NCBI GenBank assembly: GCA_031256675.1
Contig: JAIRQC010000126.1
Span: forward strand, 1 to 50,006
DNA: 50,006 nucleotides
DNA from: Rikenellaceae bacterium
GTDB taxonomy: Bacteria > Bacteroidota > Bacteroidia > Bacteroidales > Rikenellaceae
Direction of reading: 5' to 3'
A program made the position numbers and the translations under genes. Shown one piece after another: positions 35,683-49,645 of this stretch (its first letter is position 1; every line of letters starts with the position of its first letter). The notes beneath the pieces are model-generated. The model was not told where the DNA came from. It saw nothing but the letters and a program-made list of their open reading frames with translations, and did not search any database.

Positions 35683-36033
35683 AGTTGCCTCTCTTCGCTT
35701 GTTGCTTATTGTTTTGTTCGGTCTTGCGGGGCAAGACCAGCAGCCCGCAGCCGCTCCTTGCAGAGGGCCGAAAATCACTTTTCATTTCTCATTTTCCAGT
35801 TACCTCCCTGCGCTGATCGCTTATTGTTTTTTCGGTCTTGCGGGGCAAGACCGGCAGCCCGCAGCCGCTCCCTGCAGAGGGCCGAAAATCACTTTTCATT
35901 TTTCATTTTCCAGTTACCTCCCTGCGCTGATCGCTTATTGTTTTGTTCGGTCTTGCGGGGCAAGGCCGGCTGCGGGCCGAAAACCGAAACCACCCACAGT
36001 TACCTCCCTCCGCTGGTCGCTTGCTGCCTCGCG
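35683..36033. repeat. 115-bp tandem repeat, two full and two partial units
   Basis: Units start at 35683, 35798, 35912 and 35998, each with AGTTRCCTC. Units 1 and 2 (115 and 114 bp) are nearly identical, unit 3 has an internal deletion (86 bp) and unit 4 is only its first part. Each of units 1-3 carries a GGTCTTGC-GGG-GCAAGACC hairpin (8-bp stem; weaker in unit 3) and the first two the segment AGAGGGCCGAAAATCACTTT. It lies between two minus-strand genes and has no coding role that I can see. Confidence 0.9.
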
Positions 36034-37733: not shown

Positions 37734-38201
37734 TTAATCAGCCTCCAGGTTATCGAGCATCTGTTTGACGGTCAGCCCTGTATGTGGATCGCGGCGATCG
37801 GGGCCGACGGCGGCCAGCGGACGCAGCACGAAAGCCCGTTCGGCAATCCGGGGGTGGGGCACCGTCAGGCGCGGCGTGGAGAGCTGCAACTCGTCGTAAT
37901 ACAGAATATCTATATCCATCGTCCGCGAGGCATAGCCGCCGGACGTTTTCTGCGTGCGTCCCAGCGTGCGTTCGATGGCCTGCGTCGCGTCCAGCAACTC
38001 CTCCGGAGCGAGGGCCGTCTCGACCACAATGGCCTGATTGAGAAACTGTTCCTCCGCCTCGAAGCCCCACGGTACGGACTCCATGACCGGCGAGCAGGCC
38101 TTGATATGGCCTATCTCGCTCCCTATCAGCTCGGCAGCCCTTCGGATATTCTCCTCTCGGCAGCCCAGATTGCCCCCAGTCAGCAACACCGCGAGGCTCA
38201 T
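37734..38201 (-). CDS. folK: 2-amino-4-hydroxy-6-hydroxymethyldihydropteridine diphosphokinase
   Basis: HPPK pyrophosphorylates hydroxymethyl-dihydropterin, making the substrate of FolP, encoded at 6.8-7.7 kb. The 155-residue product starts at 38201 (MSLAVLLTGGNLGCREEN), overlapping the holB stop by ATGA. Typical motifs are the TGGNLG start, VPWGFEAEEQFLNQ, RTMDIDILYYDE and PHPRIAERAFVL. The frame stays open into holB upstream, which is shadow sequence. Confidence 0.95.
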   Translation of the reverse strand: MSLAVLLTGGNLGCREENIRRAAELIGSEIGHIKACSPVMESVPWGFEAEEQFLNQAIVVETALAPEELLDATQAIERTLGRTQKTSGGYASRTMDIDILYYDELQLSTPRLTVPHPRIAERAFVLRPLAAVGPDRRDPHTGLTVKQMLDNLEAD

Positions 38202-39340
38202 CGGCGCACTATCATCTTGCTCACCGTCAGCGCAAAATGCGGGAAAACGATGCGCGGATTGCCGTTCTGCGCCACCTGCGCCACGGTGCGTTCGATCTCC
38301 GCCGCCAGCGCCTCGATGTTGCCGTTGTCGATAAAGGGCGAAAACTTGCGGCAAAAGTCGAGTTCGTGACCCCAAAGATAGCTGATCCGCCCCATTCCCG
38401 CGTTGAGCATATAGCTCTCTCGCACAAGGCGCAAGGCGTTGACCAGAAACTGTTTCTGCTCCTCGCGCCCCATTGTGGCCAGCGTGTCGGCCCATTCGAG
38501 GAGCTCCATGTGGCGGTCGTTATACGAGAGCCGCATGAGCTGCACGAACATGTCGAACATCGCGTCCGTGTCGCCCGTCTCGCCGAAGCCGACCATACGT
38601 CGAGCCTCGATCACATCCCCGCGGCTCAGTCTGGCGATCGTCTCGGCCTTTTGAACGTCGACGCCATGCCGTTCGACAAGGTCGCGCCGCACCTCCTCCG
38701 TCTCCACCGGCCCGAGGCCAAGCTCCTGAACGCGAGAGATGATCGTCGGCAGCAGCCGCGCCGGTTCCGCGCTTACCATGATGAAGAGCGTCTTCTCCCA
38801 CGGCTCCTCCAAAATCTTGAGCAACGTATTGGCAGCCTGATCGTTCATCTGCTCCGGCAGCCACACAATCATAATTTTATACTCCGCCTCGAACGACTTG
38901 AACGACAGTTTACGTATGACCTCTTCCGCCTCGTTTCGGGTGATAAGTCCCTGCAGATTGCCCAGTTCGATGGCGTCATACCATCCCTCGCGGTCGAAGT
39001 ACCCGCCGGTCGAGAGCATCTTCTCGCGCCACTGTGTCAGAAACCTGTCCGACGTCGGCTTCGTCGCGCCACCTTTCGAGGGCGCGTTCACCGGAAAGAC
39101 AAAATGCACGTCAGGGTGCACAAGGGCCGCCGTCTTGACGCACGACGGGCATTCGCCACACGAATCCCCGTCGCGTCGCGCCGTGCAGTTAAGGTACTGG
39201 GCATAAGCCATCGCCAGCGGCATGGCCCCATAGCCCGACCGTCCCGAGAACAGTTGCCCGTGGCTCACCCGTCCCTCGTCAACGCTCCGCCGCAGCAACT
39301 CCTTGATCTCGCCGTGACCTATAACATCGGAAAATCTCAT
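38198..39340 (-). CDS. holB: DNA polymerase III delta-prime subunit
   Basis: Delta-prime is a clamp-loader subunit that helps open and load the beta sliding clamp. The 380-residue AAA+ product begins MRFSDVIGHGEIKELLRRS, has a degenerate Walker A (GRSGYGAMPLAMA, lacking the Lys), a zinc module with C-x7-C-x2-C-x2-C spacing (CTARRDGDSCGECPSC), a LLKILEEPWEKTLFI SRC-type region and a C-terminal collar. The degenerate P-loop is normal for delta-prime. The ATG directly follows an alternating GA run (39341-39352). Confidence 0.92.
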   Translation of the reverse strand: MRFSDVIGHGEIKELLRRSVDEGRVSHGQLFSGRSGYGAMPLAMAYAQYLNCTARRDGDSCGECPSCVKTAALVHPDVHFVFPVNAPSKGGATKPTSDRFLTQWREKMLSTGGYFDREGWYDAIELGNLQGLITRNEAEEVIRKLSFKSFEAEYKIMIVWLPEQMNDQAANTLLKILEEPWEKTLFIMVSAEPARLLPTIISRVQELGLGPVETEEVRRDLVERHGVDVQKAETIARLSRGDVIEARRMVGFGETGDTDAMFDMFVQLMRLSYNDRHMELLEWADTLATMGREEQKQFLVNALRLVRESYMLNAGMGRISYLWGHELDFCRKFSPFIDNGNIEALAAEIERTVAQVAQNGNPRIVFPHFALTVSKMIVRR

Positions 39341-39621
39341 CTCTCTCTCTCTTTATTCTTTACCTGTCTGCTGTTTCAGGTCTGTTGCCTTTTTGTGTTG
39401 CTTTCAGGTTGCTCTTTGGTGGTTTCAGGTTGCACTTCGGGCCCCGTCCTTCTCGCAAGGCTGAGTTTCGAGCAAGCCCGACCCTGCTCTTGCCTCGTTC
39501 GTCGATTCGCGCCGTAGCCGGGTTCTATGGTTCTCGGGCTGACGTCGGGCTGAAACACATTTCCTAATTTCTTGCGATCTGCCGTTTGACGGCGGCGAAC
39601 CGGCAACTCGGGTTTAATTGG

Positions 39622-41288: not shown

Positions 41289-44860
<3,572 letters not shown>

Positions 44861-44880
44861 ATATCGTTTCTGAGAAATTG

Positions 44881-44909
44881 CAAAGATACGCAAAACTCTT
44901 TGAGAGTTT
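44881..44909 (-). promoter_or_regulatory. metH promoter with palindromic operator-like site
   Basis: TATCTTTG on the minus strand (44881-44888) matches TAnnTTTG, 20 bp before metH. Next to it AAACTCT-TTG-AGAGTTT (44893-44909) is a perfect 7-bp palindrome overlapping the upstream promoter region. This would suit a dimeric regulator of methionine synthesis; the regulator is unknown. Confidence 0.5.
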
Positions 44910-45299
44910 ATTATTTTTTTGGAATAAAAAGGTTGGGCTGTTTTTGGGGCTGGGGCTTTGGGTTTGAGGCAGGGTCTGGCGTCGGGATGTTCGATGTTTT
45001 GTCTTGACGGTCGACGGCGATTTTTTTGTGGTTTTTTTGTGGTGGCAAGTTGTCCTGTTTTTTGGTGAAGGCTGGCGGGTGTTTTTGTGGGGGAAGGAGG
45101 CAGCAGTTGTGCCGAATTGTCGGGTTTGTGAATGGGTCGTGGTTGTGTGAAATTGTCAGATTTGCAAATGGGCAGCAAGTTGTACAAGATTCTAATACAC
45201 AGTGCAGTCCTAAATAATCAAAAGTATCATGAAAGAAACTCGACTAATATGTTCATACCGACCACAAAGATAGGCTTTTCGTGGAATATTTCCGAATGA
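44910..45299. other. GT-rich noncoding stretch upstream of metH
   Basis: On the plus strand this region is strongly T/G-rich (for example around 45020-45130) and A/C-poor; read in the metH direction it is CA-rich and T-poor. It keeps the metH frame open by composition only. No gene is seen. Confidence 0.5.
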
Positions 45300-45720
45300 C
45301 GGGCTGCAAATCCGTTTTTTCAGGCGCCGTTAATGTGTCTGTTTCCTGCAGCAGATTCATTATTGCTGCGCAAAACTCTTTAATGTCGTTTATATCCATA
45401 ATTTACCAAGCCATCATAGGTCTTAAAACCATCAGTGTAAACCATATAACCCGTGTCGGCACGACCTTGAATAATGGGCAACAACTCACTGATATTGCAA
45501 TGTTTTATACTTTATCTCCGCGTTTGAGCATACCGAAAACGGATGTTTTACCACGTGCTCCCCGTCCGCAAATTCCACATACCCGACGTGCGCCGAAATA
45601 ACTCTTGTCGAGTTCTATCTCGCCGTTTTCAAACGGACTATCTATCCGTTTCGCAAATCTTGGCCATACGCTCACGCAGTTGTTTACTGTGCCACGATTC
45701 AAACTGCTAAATTATGCGAG
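45300..45720 (-). pseudogene. Degraded IS1595-family (ISXO2-like) transposase
   Basis: Pieces of an ISXO2-like transposase are readable in three frames: LRERMAKICETD near 45690-45650, then SPFENGEIELDKSYFGARRV and GICGRGARGKTSVFGMLKRG (45505-45660), then CNISELLPIIQGRADTGYMV with YTDGFKTYDG (stop at 45380-45382), then NESAAGNRHING near 45330. Conserved ELD..YFG and Y.DGF..Y motifs fix the family. Several frameshifts and stops make it nonfunctional; terminal inverted repeats were not identified. Confidence 0.78.
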
Positions 45721-46374
45721 CTTTTTTTGTCTCCAGAAATCCGACTCGCATAAAACAACTCGGACTATTTTTTGCCCGAATCAAACATATTTTTGTCCGA
45801 ATAGGCAACTTTTTTCACTTTTTTTCACTTTTTTCTCAAAAAAAGCATTTTAATCGTAATCAATTAAAAATAAATATATTACAATAGTAGAATATATTTT
45901 ATACAATGATTTGGGCAAAAGACAAATCGCCTCTACAGCTATCTATGGGGCATATTGACCGTTTTTGTGGTTTTTTGCCTGAAATCAAAAAAACGTTAGG
46001 ATATTTGGAAATAAAAAAAAAAGTTTTTTCCTTTGTGCCAGAAAATGCTATTCAATTAATCAATTAGATACACGGTTTAAATGAAGTAATTTTTGAGTTC
46101 CTTAAAATATTGACGAAAAAATGGCCGCAGTTCTGTTTCCTGATATTGATTTGCTGCATTATTAATTTAGATGCAAAATGTCAATATTGTTAATTTGAGT
46201 AGTTTGGCGATTATTCACAATATTGAGTAATGGATGAGATAACTAAAAAAGTTGTCGATTGCATCCAAATTCGAAAATTAAGTAACGTTTTTGGACATAT
46301 ATAATGCGAATCGAGGTTCTTTTCCGGATTTAAGGTTTTAACCTGTCGGAGTTTCAACATAACGAACAGGTCGC
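45721..46374. other. AT-rich noncoding stretch
   Basis: No gene seen. The region is AT-rich with many T and A tracts (for example near 45820-45880 and 46010). It probably contains the promoter for the AraC-type gene, but I could not identify an exact TAnnTTTG with matching TTTG. Confidence 0.5.
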
Positions 46375-46766
46375 CGCGGCTGGTACAGCAGCAGGGGCAA
46401 CAACTCAATCAACAGGCAACAACACGAAGACAAACAGCAACGACAAGCGTCTACCGGCATAAAGGTAACATTAACGACAGATAGCACAAGCAGCGACCGG
46501 TAACGACGACACTAAGACAGGGAACGACACTAACGACAAGTAGCGACGACGCCAAGATCAGCTACGATAAATATAAGATCGGTAACGGTAACATTAACGA
46601 CAGCTAACATTGACACGGAGACAGGCAATAACAACGAACTGCAACGCTAAGAACTGACCAAAGACCGGTGCAATAACAGACAGGCGACAGGCAGGCAACA
46701 ACAGATAACACACAGACAGGCGAAACGAGCAATTAATGACCTGCAACAACAACGGGAACAAGAAGT
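46375..46766 (+). promoter_or_regulatory. Long T-poor, repeat-like leader of the AraC gene
   Basis: For about 390 nt the plus strand contains only about 10 per cent T, rich in AAC, ACA and GAC triplets. Degenerate motifs recur: TAACGACR (at least four times) and ACAGGCRA (at least five times). No open frame of significance is present. The RNA would be nearly unstructured. It ends directly at the ATG of the AraC-type regulator, so it is likely its 5' leader. Confidence 0.55.
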
Positions 46767-47660
46767 ATGGAACACCCTCGTTTTTTATCGCATAAAGGAT
46801 GCCGGAGCTATTTGGCTGCGGACAAGTCGGACGTCGAGTATTTGCGTTTGATGAAGGGCGACGTGCTGGTGCGTGACATGGCCAAGGCGGGGATATTGTT
46901 ACTGGTTAAGGGTCGGATGTCGGTGACCTACGAGAAGGCCGACGAGCAGACGCTTGGCGACAGACAGATGATCGTGATGCCGCTCGGAGTTGGGCGGATG
47001 ACGCTCAGGGCGCAGCGGGATTGTGGGATTGTGCTGGTGAGGACAGACAGTTTGTCTCACCTGTGCGGATATAATTCGATGGAGTCGCTGAGCGGAGTGA
47101 TGGACAAGCACCGCCCGAAACAGAGGCTGGAGGTTATCCCGCTCGACTTCAACCAGCGTATAGTGCAGTATATTAACAGTTTGGCGCCGGTTATCGAGGA
47201 CGAGGTCTATTGCAAGGAGTTTATGGACTTAAAGGCGAGGGAGTTGCTCTTTATTTTGCGGACGTTCTACACTAAGGATGAGCTGGCCGGTTTTTTCCAG
47301 CCGCTGGTTAGCAACGACATGTCGTTTTCGAATTTTGTGTGGACAAACTATCGCAAGGTCAAGGGGGTGTCGGATTTTGCGGATTTGTATAATTGCAGTG
47401 TGTCGACGTTCAAGCAGAAGTTCAAGGATGTATTTGGTATGCCGGCGTTGAAGTGGATGAACGAGCAGCGGGCGCGGAACATATATTATGATCTGCGTTA
47501 TTCGGAGAAGACGCTCACGCAGATTTCGGAGGAATACCATTTTGCGTCGGTCTCCTACCTGAGCACGTTTTGCAAGAACAATTTGTCTCAAACTACTAGG
47601 GAGATAAGGAGCCGGAAGATAAAAAAGAGTATTTTACCACAAATTCCGACCGATTTTTAA
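46767..47660 (+). CDS. AraC-family transcriptional regulator
   Basis: The 297-residue DNA-binding protein has a C-terminal AraC helix-turn-helix pair at about residues 195-285: NYRKVKGVSDFADLYNCSVS and TFKQKFKDVFGMPALKWMN, then LTQISEEYHFASVSYLSTFC. The N-terminal part is a cupin-like sensor region without obvious ligand motif. It ends 326 bp before mfa1 on the same strand, so it likely controls the fimbrial operon. Such regulators next to fimbrillin genes are frequent in Bacteroidales. Confidence 0.9.
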   Translation: MEHPRFLSHKGCRSYLAADKSDVEYLRLMKGDVLVRDMAKAGILLLVKGRMSVTYEKADEQTLGDRQMIVMPLGVGRMTLRAQRDCGIVLVRTDSLSHLCGYNSMESLSGVMDKHRPKQRLEVIPLDFNQRIVQYINSLAPVIEDEVYCKEFMDLKARELLFILRTFYTKDELAGFFQPLVSNDMSFSNFVWTNYRKVKGVSDFADLYNCSVSTFKQKFKDVFGMPALKWMNEQRARNIYYDLRYSEKTLTQISEEYHFASVSYLSTFCKNNLSQTTREIRSRKIKKSILPQIPTDF

Positions 47661-47703
47661 TATATTTTGACCTTTATTGGATAATTATGTTGAAATTTAT
47701 CAA

Positions 47704-47711
47704 TAACTTTG
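47704..47711 (+). promoter_or_regulatory. -7 element for the fimbrial operon
   Basis: TAACTTTG matches TAnnTTTG, 275 bp before mfa1. The -33 box is poor (TTGG 23 nt upstream), which would fit an activator-dependent promoter. The leader from here to 47986 has GC-rich inverted repeats (CGTCCG/CGGACG) and ends in an A-rich stretch with CAAACCAAAACC-type repeats before the ATG. Confidence 0.5.
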
Positions 47712-47986
47712 CCGCGCCGATTAAATTCTTTACTCCACGACTGGTCGGGACACGAAGAATTGTTGTTGCCGGAGCGGAGAGGACGATGCGGGCTAAGACG
47801 CCTGCCGATGCTGCGAACTGCGACGACGAGCGTCCGCCTTAGCGCAGGGTGCGAAGTTCCGGACGGCGCGCCAAAGCGGCACGGTGGCGCAGCGACCACA
47901 GCAGGGCGACGCTGCCGGACAAAGTAACGAAACACGAAGCAATAAAAAAATAAGACAAACCAAAACCAACTTATAAAACCAAAACC

Positions 47987-49645
47987 ATGAAACTGAACAA
48001 ATTCTTCATTGCGGCTTTTGCAGCTGCAGCAGTTCTGAGCTCCTGCGGAGAGCAGGCGGTAGACGACGCGAACCCCGATGCCAATAAAGCTAAAGAGGGC
48101 ATTCCAACTTACGCCAGCTTCAAATTTTTCGTAACAGGGGCGTCAAGGGCAGCCCTTAGCCCCGACAACGGCGAGGTTGCTGTCCCTGCTCTTTCTCGCG
48201 TCGACATTCTGATTTTCAAGAATACCGGAAGTTTCGTTTGTGAGAAAAAAATCTCTCTGACCGGCGCTCAGGCTGTCGTTGATCCTCAGCCCGTTCTTGT
48301 AACATCAGGAACCAAGAAGATCTTCATCATCTGCAATGCCCCAACTTCGGCACAGACCAAATTGACCTCTATCACTGAGAATCTTACGACCCTGAGCGAG
48401 TTTATGGCTACCACATCGGAGATCGATCTCATCCCTGCCTCCAACGACTTGTCTGTTTTGTCGTCGTATCATCCTAGCAACATGCCGCTTAGCAATGCTA
48501 TTGATGAGGCGAGCACATTCATTCTCGAGCCCTCGGTTTCTGCGAACGAAGCCGAAACTGCTAATCCGAGCAACCAAAGCACCCACCCGAGCGGTAAAAA
48601 CTCTTTTAATATCAAAGTCAAGAGAATGCTCGCCAAGGTGCAAGTGCTTCACAATACGGCTACCGTCGTAAGTGGTGGGCAGATCGTTGCAGTGGATGGA
48701 GCTGGCACTGCAGCAGAGCTCAGAAATCTTGCGTATACCGTTCGGAACGTCAGAAGAAGCGGCTATCTGTTGATGCAAAGGCGTGCGGGTACAGAAACTC
48801 CCGCATATGATCCCGCAATTGACGACCCGAAAAGTGTATTGGTACCGTATGATGCAGCTACTTCTGCTCTCATCCCCGGAACCATTACTCAGCAATATTC
48901 TGCATTGGCTCAATATTTCTTCTCACAGAGTTGCGATGCGACCGATGCCACCAAATCTTACGATTATCTCACTACTCTGCCCGGCGGTACTCTTCCTTTG
49001 ACTAACCCCGTTCCGGGACCGTTCTATTATGTTACGGAAAATGTGAACCTTACTCCGCGCTGGGGCAACACGACTTTGGCTGTTGTCAGGGCTACGTATC
49101 TTCCCAAGGCAGGTAAATATGTTACAAGTTGTGGTTATGACATGGTCAACGATGCGTTTTCTCCTGTTACGGGAACTTCGGACATTACCACCGCCACTAC
49201 TCTTTACAAAACACTGAAAGGAGGCCCCGGCCTTCCGGCAGGATCCCTTTTCACTAACGTAACTGAGGCTTATCGTGCAGGATTCAGTTTGCTGTATCCA
49301 GGTGAAAAATATGATAACCCAGGCAGTAGCGCCCTTTGGACTGCTTTTCAAGCTGCTGATGCTGCAGGTATAGCACTTAGGGCTCAGGTACTCGAAGAGT
49401 ACAACCAAGGCACCTGCTACTATCAGGTATTCTTCGGACGCGGCAAGGTCGCTGACAACAGCCTGAAATACGGCGTGATCCGCAACGGCGCCTACACTGC
49501 CATGATCAACAAGTTCAACGGCATCGGTACGAGCACAGAGGATGGCAGCAACCCGCCCGTCACTCCGCTGACTCAGGAAACCTATGTGGACGTAACGATC
49601 ATTATACAAGGTTGGGATTACGTCGAAGGCCAATACGAACTCTAA
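47987..49645 (+). CDS. Mfa1-family major fimbrial subunit
   Basis: Fimbrillins are exported as lipoproteins, processed and polymerised by strand exchange into surface fimbriae used for adhesion. The 552-residue product has a lipoprotein signal with LSSC, Cys20. An Arg in VTGASRAALS could mark the processing site that frees the donor strand. An N-terminal beta domain is followed by a C-terminal domain with KYGVIRNGAYTAMINKFNGI and the terminal strand TYVDVTIIIQGWDYVEGQYEL in the Mfa1 pattern. The gene is lower in GC than the housekeeping genes. An anchor-subunit gene follows. Confidence 0.9.
   Translation: MKLNKFFIAAFAAAAVLSSCGEQAVDDANPDANKAKEGIPTYASFKFFVTGASRAALSPDNGEVAVPALSRVDILIFKNTGSFVCEKKISLTGAQAVVDPQPVLVTSGTKKIFIICNAPTSAQTKLTSITENLTTLSEFMATTSEIDLIPASNDLSVLSSYHPSNMPLSNAIDEASTFILEPSVSANEAETANPSNQSTHPSGKNSFNIKVKRMLAKVQVLHNTATVVSGGQIVAVDGAGTAAELRNLAYTVRNVRRSGYLLMQRRAGTETPAYDPAIDDPKSVLVPYDAATSALIPGTITQQYSALAQYFFSQSCDATDATKSYDYLTTLPGGTLPLTNPVPGPFYYVTENVNLTPRWGNTTLAVVRATYLPKAGKYVTSCGYDMVNDAFSPVTGTSDITTATTLYKTLKGGPGLPAGSLFTNVTEAYRAGFSLLYPGEKYDNPGSSALWTAFQAADAAGIALRAQVLEEYNQGTCYYQVFFGRGKVADNSLKYGVIRNGAYTAMINKFNGIGTSTEDGSNPPVTPLTQETYVDVTIIIQGWDYVEGQYEL

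Follow-up and report, generated by a model that had tools for sequence, protein, structure and literature searches.

The T-poor, A-rich tract of degenerate repeats that precedes an AraC-type regulator gene in a Rikenellaceae genome is probably an untranslated 5' leader, as judged from its composition, repeats, and folding. The tract occupies 46385–46764 on the plus strand (maximum-scoring segment) of the window, which is the whole stretch of DNA analysed (50,006 bases) and one whole contig of a MAG (G000; 2.38 Mb, 140 contigs, 82% complete). Sequence comparison ties the tract neither to AraC nor to fimbriae and makes it a member of a genome-wide class. The explanation proposed here, to which we give about an even chance, is that the leader would consist of decayed short tandem duplications and would belong to repeat-swollen spacers found throughout the genus, rather than being a fimbrial control element, and that the variants kept would be those that RNA polymerase can cross without translation.

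Over 46375–46766 the base fractions are A.416, C.250, G.232, and T.102, and the window minimum of T over any 392-nt stretch begins at 46373. The sense strand is 65% purine; C stays at 25%, yet almost never follows C or T. The preliminary description of about 390 nt with about 10% T and recurring words of the TAACGACR and ACAGGCRA type is borne out. TAACGAC has 4 copies (0.12 expected) and ACAGGC has 5 (0.46 expected), and none of 500 dinucleotide shuffles reached either count. The same holds for 3 copies of TAACGACA and 2 copies of ACAGGCGA (0/500 shuffles as high in each case), while the weakest word, ACAGGCAA, with 2 copies, was equalled in 2/500. Identical 8-mer pairs number 43 against 7.1 in dinucleotide shuffles (0/500 as high). 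The tract holds 11 families of direct repeats of 11–36 nt, and no inverted repeats were found in it. Tandem Repeats Finder reported two arrays only, with 69% and 74% matches; the earlier claim of diverged repeats ending at the ATG is supported, and the near-identical tandem units of a phase-variable repeat are absent. The tract is self-repetitive, T-poor in the sense strand, and ends near a start codon, and these are the features of the swollen-spacer class described below.

The minimum free energy of the tract is -51.9 kcal/mol, weaker than in all 62 GC-matched windows of the contig (mean -113.6, range -141.1 to -78.5), and only 1 of 120 random windows folds as weakly; the unstructured RNA proposed earlier is supported in silico. 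Weak folding is attributed to composition because dinucleotide shuffles of the tract fold like the tract itself (z +1.23). All three sense frames are interrupted by stops and three-base periodicity is absent, and the tract is therefore noncoding. A search of 44500–48100 against Rfam gave no match up to E 1, neither to a riboswitch or T-box nor to any other known structured leader.

TTTG is absent from the tract and occurs seven times in the preceding 375 bases, without any full TAnnTTTG; any typical Bacteroidota promoter therefore lies upstream of the tract. If the tract is a leader, the promoter must be held by the AT-rich stretch at 45983–46374 (plus strand; half-site scan). The best sigma-ABfr-like half-sites, scored against the consensus given in the accessible part of PMC7366714, lie at 46004/46028 and 45974/46000 with 9/10 matches, and neither forms a full TAnnTTTG. 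If a typical promoter drives the regulator gene, a leader of about 380 nt or more is probable, in line with the long leader suggested at the outset. Scanning for sigma-70 promoters and intrinsic terminators gave no clear excess over shuffles. Of the inverted repeats that could flank the promoter, as in an invertible promoter, the best pair in the AT-rich region is 45800–45815 / 46245–46260 (16 nt, 88%, 429 nt apart).

The AraC-type regulator itself (46767–47660, plus strand, 297 aa) carries HTH_18 and an ExsA_N-like N-terminal half. A 19-codon ATG frame (46736–46795, plus strand; ATG at 46736, stop at 46793) overlaps its start out of frame and may be either a leader ORF or a product of chance. 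Downstream of the AraC-type gene, a second T-poor stretch (47863–47986, plus strand; segment found at 47863–48001), with 7 YC pairs against 12.2 expected, precedes the gene of a FimA/fimbrillin-like major fimbrial subunit (47987–49645, plus strand, 552 aa). Another T-poor and repetitive stretch (39340–39453, minus strand), recognized by T-poor score and repeats, ends where a pol III delta'-like gene (38198–39340) begins. The tract had been called rare in this genome region; it does have the lowest T of the contig, but the final 11 kb of the window contain two more T-poor tracts in sense orientation, and many occur elsewhere in the genome. A repetitive spacer before a minus-strand gene, with 2.5 tandem copies of a 114-nt unit (93% matches), is also present at 35683–35970.

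Going upstream from the tract, one meets AT-rich DNA, then the decayed gene of an IS1595-like transposase, and then metH, the latter two on the minus strand. The transposase remnant between metH and the AraC gene (45270–45710) matches Pfam with E 0.0096, below the curated cut-off. The closest MetH relatives are labelled Rikenellaceae or Alistipes (56–64% identity), and the MAG is placed in Rikenellaceae on this basis. A 251-bp stretch that includes a T-poor part and the TATCTTTG metH promoter (44871–45118) has a second copy at L156:6151–6399 with 92% identity; as this copy lies before another gene of the same genome, the stretch is a dispersed repeat bearing a predicted promoter.

By the preliminary description's own measure, a lack of similar sequences in relatives would count against its reading, and such a lack was observed. 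In 41 genomes, no DNA homologue of the tract was found beyond its own place, and other matches reached at most 37 bases. Besides its own locus, AraC homologues were read at 13 loci, one of which was left out with 2 bases of upstream DNA. None of the 12 others has a T-poor leader (T.24–.43 over the last 400 upstream bases), although several of the starts are guesses because the protein aligned only in part. The genome-contig search gave no AraC relatives, and no AraC orthologue was found in the genus relative G001 (best E 1.6e-4). With no homologous tract and no T-poor leader at related AraC genes, the tract is not a feature of AraC or of fimbriae.

An A-rich/T-poor score applied to 578 kb of the MAG identified 26 noncoding tracts, at least three of which look coding on reading (L032 18328, L035 7336, L045 11444) and are kept in the counts. 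The next gene is in sense on the T-poor strand for 23 of the 26, compared with 11 of 22 complementary-strand tracts. By a second spacer score, T-poor spacers outnumber A-poor ones 26 to 8 when co-directional and 10 to 3 when divergent, so that in total 36 face the next gene and 11 do not (p 3.5e-4). The same score gave 14 vs 7 co-directional and 3 vs 2 divergent spacers in G001. Other sets show little bias, for example 8 vs 3 co-directional spacers in named Rikenellaceae and 5 vs 6 in other Bacteroidota. Genes behind the T-poor tracts of the MAG include ftsW, a DUF3575/OmpA gene, pol III delta', CotH, and rplP, and the repeat words differ from locus to locus. Gene starts come from a simple caller based on codon usage; it failed to call the fimbrillin gene and shifted the AraC start. 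The idea that all leaders of the MAG are T-poor was dropped, as average spacer composition shows no general T-poverty (T.23–.25 in co-directional spacers). Four tracts (metH, L156 6213, L140, L145 15664), placed by eye, lie upstream of promoter-like sequence; the RNA argument does not apply there, and not all tracts can be RNA leaders.

Repetitive spacers are frequent in this genus, at 8.7 per 100 kb in the MAG (50 in 577 kb) and 8.1 per 100 kb in G001 (10 in 123 kb). The density is 2.5 per 100 kb in each of two samples from elsewhere in Rikenellaceae (7 in 280 kb; 9 in 354 kb) and 4.0 per 100 kb in other Bacteroidota (19 in 469 kb). Of the 32 co-directional repetitive spacers of the MAG, 15 have an A fraction above that of T by more than 0.1 and 2 show the opposite; repetitive spacers with ordinary T also occur. 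By far the most repetitive spacer sampled is L140:7271–7590, a perfect short array of GTGAAGC-type units. Such swollen spacers were not found described in the open-licence papers searched.

Spacer swelling extends into the S10-spc ribosomal operon. rplP was located in 55 of 61 family genomes, and the best 30 loci were read for the rpsC-rplP spacer. It measures 381 nt in the MAG and 492 nt in G001, compared with 4–121 nt in the other 28 loci among these best 30 of 55; the value of 4 nt, at G020, probably reflects a spurious open frame, with about 27 implied. Further intervals of the ribosomal cluster are likewise longer. Between these two operons the genes align at 74–87% and the alignment breaks at the spacers, whose lengths also differ (e.g., 236 unaligned bases against 4). 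In those relatives for which the gene before ftsW is readable (5 of 6 loci), the two are no more than 30 nt apart, and in the MAG a 687-nt spacer lies ahead of ftsW. Between a murD-like end and ftsW, a lipoprotein-like ORF without a Pfam match is present at L036:11101–11667 (minus strand). In G001, orthologues of metH and pol III delta' were not found, and the sole ftsW match was weak (E 1.5e-15, 26%).

According to the accessible part of PMC12350095, the clefts of Rho favor YC pairs, and Rut sites are rich in pyrimidines, U/C-rich, and G-poor. The Rho gene is present in the MAG. On the contigs carrying the ribosomal cluster, spacers of at least 100 nt have fewer YC pairs on the transcribed than on the other strand in 11 of 11 cases in the MAG and 11 of 12 in G001, and this asymmetry exceeds that of other co-directional spacers (p 4e-5 and 6e-5). 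The most extreme spacer, in G001, has 1.7 YC per 78 nt on the transcribed strand and 33.7 on the other. The AraC tract contains 11 YC pairs against 34.3 in composition shuffles (0/2000 below 21), a p-value that overstates the evidence because repeats make bases non-independent. Per 78 nt this amounts to 2.2 on the sense strand, 11.0 on the other strand, and 10.7 in the contig. Windows with YC as low were 8 of 115,846 in the sampled genome, and 1 of 125 other spacers was as asymmetric; the repeats make these figures, too, overstate the evidence. The first step of RhoTermPredict, as set out in the accessible part of PMC6407284, looks for a 78-nt window with C > G and regularly spaced C. This feature is present in the tract, where C/G exceeds 1 in 70% of 315 such windows, with a peak of 1.83 and 6 regular-C runs, whereas the pyrimidine and YC richness of a Rho utilization site is missing. 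A protein with RRM_1 was not found in G000 or G001 (both incomplete), G019, or G060, and one each was found in G009, G013, and G020.

From these data, it can be hypothesized that slippage at repeats and duplication let spacers grow and turn over fast. Among transcribed spacers, the variants retained would give RNA that is poor in U and in YC pairs and has little structure. RNA polymerase could then pass over hundreds of bases that are not translated, escaping both Rho-dependent and intrinsic termination, and the ribosome would find an open start. For the AraC tract, we infer transcription through it, its escape from Rho, and selection as the cause. Several observations weigh against this transparent passage of polymerase. 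A YC ratio below 0.7 is found in only 7 of the 26 T-poor tracts, and the ftsW leader, at 0.97, is not depleted. The tracts above promoter-like sequence and the excess of C over G in most windows of the AraC tract, a classic rut feature, point the same way, as do the simple gene caller and a genus sample of two incomplete MAGs (82% and 54%). The wider proposal, resting on these two genomes, is that the whole genus tolerates operon spacers swollen by fast-changing repeats and maintains expression by avoiding U and YC on the transcribed strand, so that the RNA would go unseen by Rho and intrinsic termination; it is possible but doubtful.

The main rival is neutral swelling, in which spacer repeats expand and the shortage of T on the sense strand results from mutation bias or effects at the DNA level, without any selection acting on RNA passage. 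The T-poor tracts above promoters, the ordinary average T of co-directional spacers, and the repetitive spacers of ordinary T are all consistent with it; however, neither the 36:11 orientation nor the concentration of YC asymmetry in ribosomal contigs is expected without a strand-aware filter, and we regard this account as unlikely. It is still less probable that the tract is a dedicated leader of the fimbrial regulator, serving as a docking platform whose TAACGAC and ACAGGC words would be recognized by a small RNA or an RNA-binding protein. Such a role would fit words repeated far above chance, a length well beyond the 32-nt median of 5' leaders in B. thetaiotaomicron (accessible part of PMC7366714), and the T-poor leader of the adjoining fimbrillin gene. 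Against it stand the different words at other tracts, the AraC homologues without such a leader, the absence of an Rfam match, and the failure to find an RRM_1 protein in the two incomplete genomes of the genus.

The remaining alternatives had been raised in the preliminary description. An unstructured leader might recruit Rho, so that transcription ends before AraC. The weak structure of the tract agrees with such an attenuator, as does the C/G profile with its regular C, which corresponds to the first step of RhoTermPredict (PMC6407284, accessible part). However, YC pairs are depleted threefold beyond composition, and the tract is nearly without U, whereas Rut sites are U/C-rich in the accessible text of PMC12350095; Rho recruitment is therefore very unlikely. 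Our reading reverses the idea, in that the tract may stay transparent to termination. Least probable is an on/off switch of fimbriae through slippage of a tandem repeat. The repeats do adjoin a fimbrial regulator, but at 69–74% matches the units of the two arrays are too diverged for frequent slippage, no inverted repeats bound the tract, and the same tract class precedes ftsW and rplP; phase control is accordingly not favored.

Few parts of bacterial genomes are as compact as ribosomal-protein operons. Untranslated spacers of several hundred bases inside such an operon, shared by two species of the same genus, would be expected to provoke Rho. If the proposal of transparent spacers is true, they would form a natural library of untranslated RNA that Bacteroidota polymerase can cross without ribosomes, and a shared strand rule would allow the sequence needs of untranslated transcription in Bacteroidota to be tested. 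In the window itself, a genome-wide habit replaces the supposed fimbrial switch as the matter of interest.

Purine loading, or Szybalski's rule, describes a purine-rich transcribed strand, mainly in coding sequence. The AraC tract is similar in its purine-rich, T-poor sense strand with little structure and in a bias that tracks transcription direction; in contrast, it is noncoding, built of repeats, far more extreme, and retains its C. In B. thetaiotaomicron, 13.5% of mRNAs have a 5' leader longer than 100 nt (PMC7366714, accessible part). Like these, the tract would be a long untranslated leader ahead of a regulator, whereas the special composition, the repeats, and the genus-wide swelling that includes operon spacers set it apart. 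Intergenic degenerate tandem repeats of the VNTR-like kind also consist of tandemly related short words in a spacer, but here the words are locus-specific, the composition is strand-biased, and ribosomal-operon sites are affected. Finally, rut leaders are likewise unstructured and untranslated, with C > G in most windows, but the AraC tract is depleted in YC and U, the reverse of a good Rho ligand.
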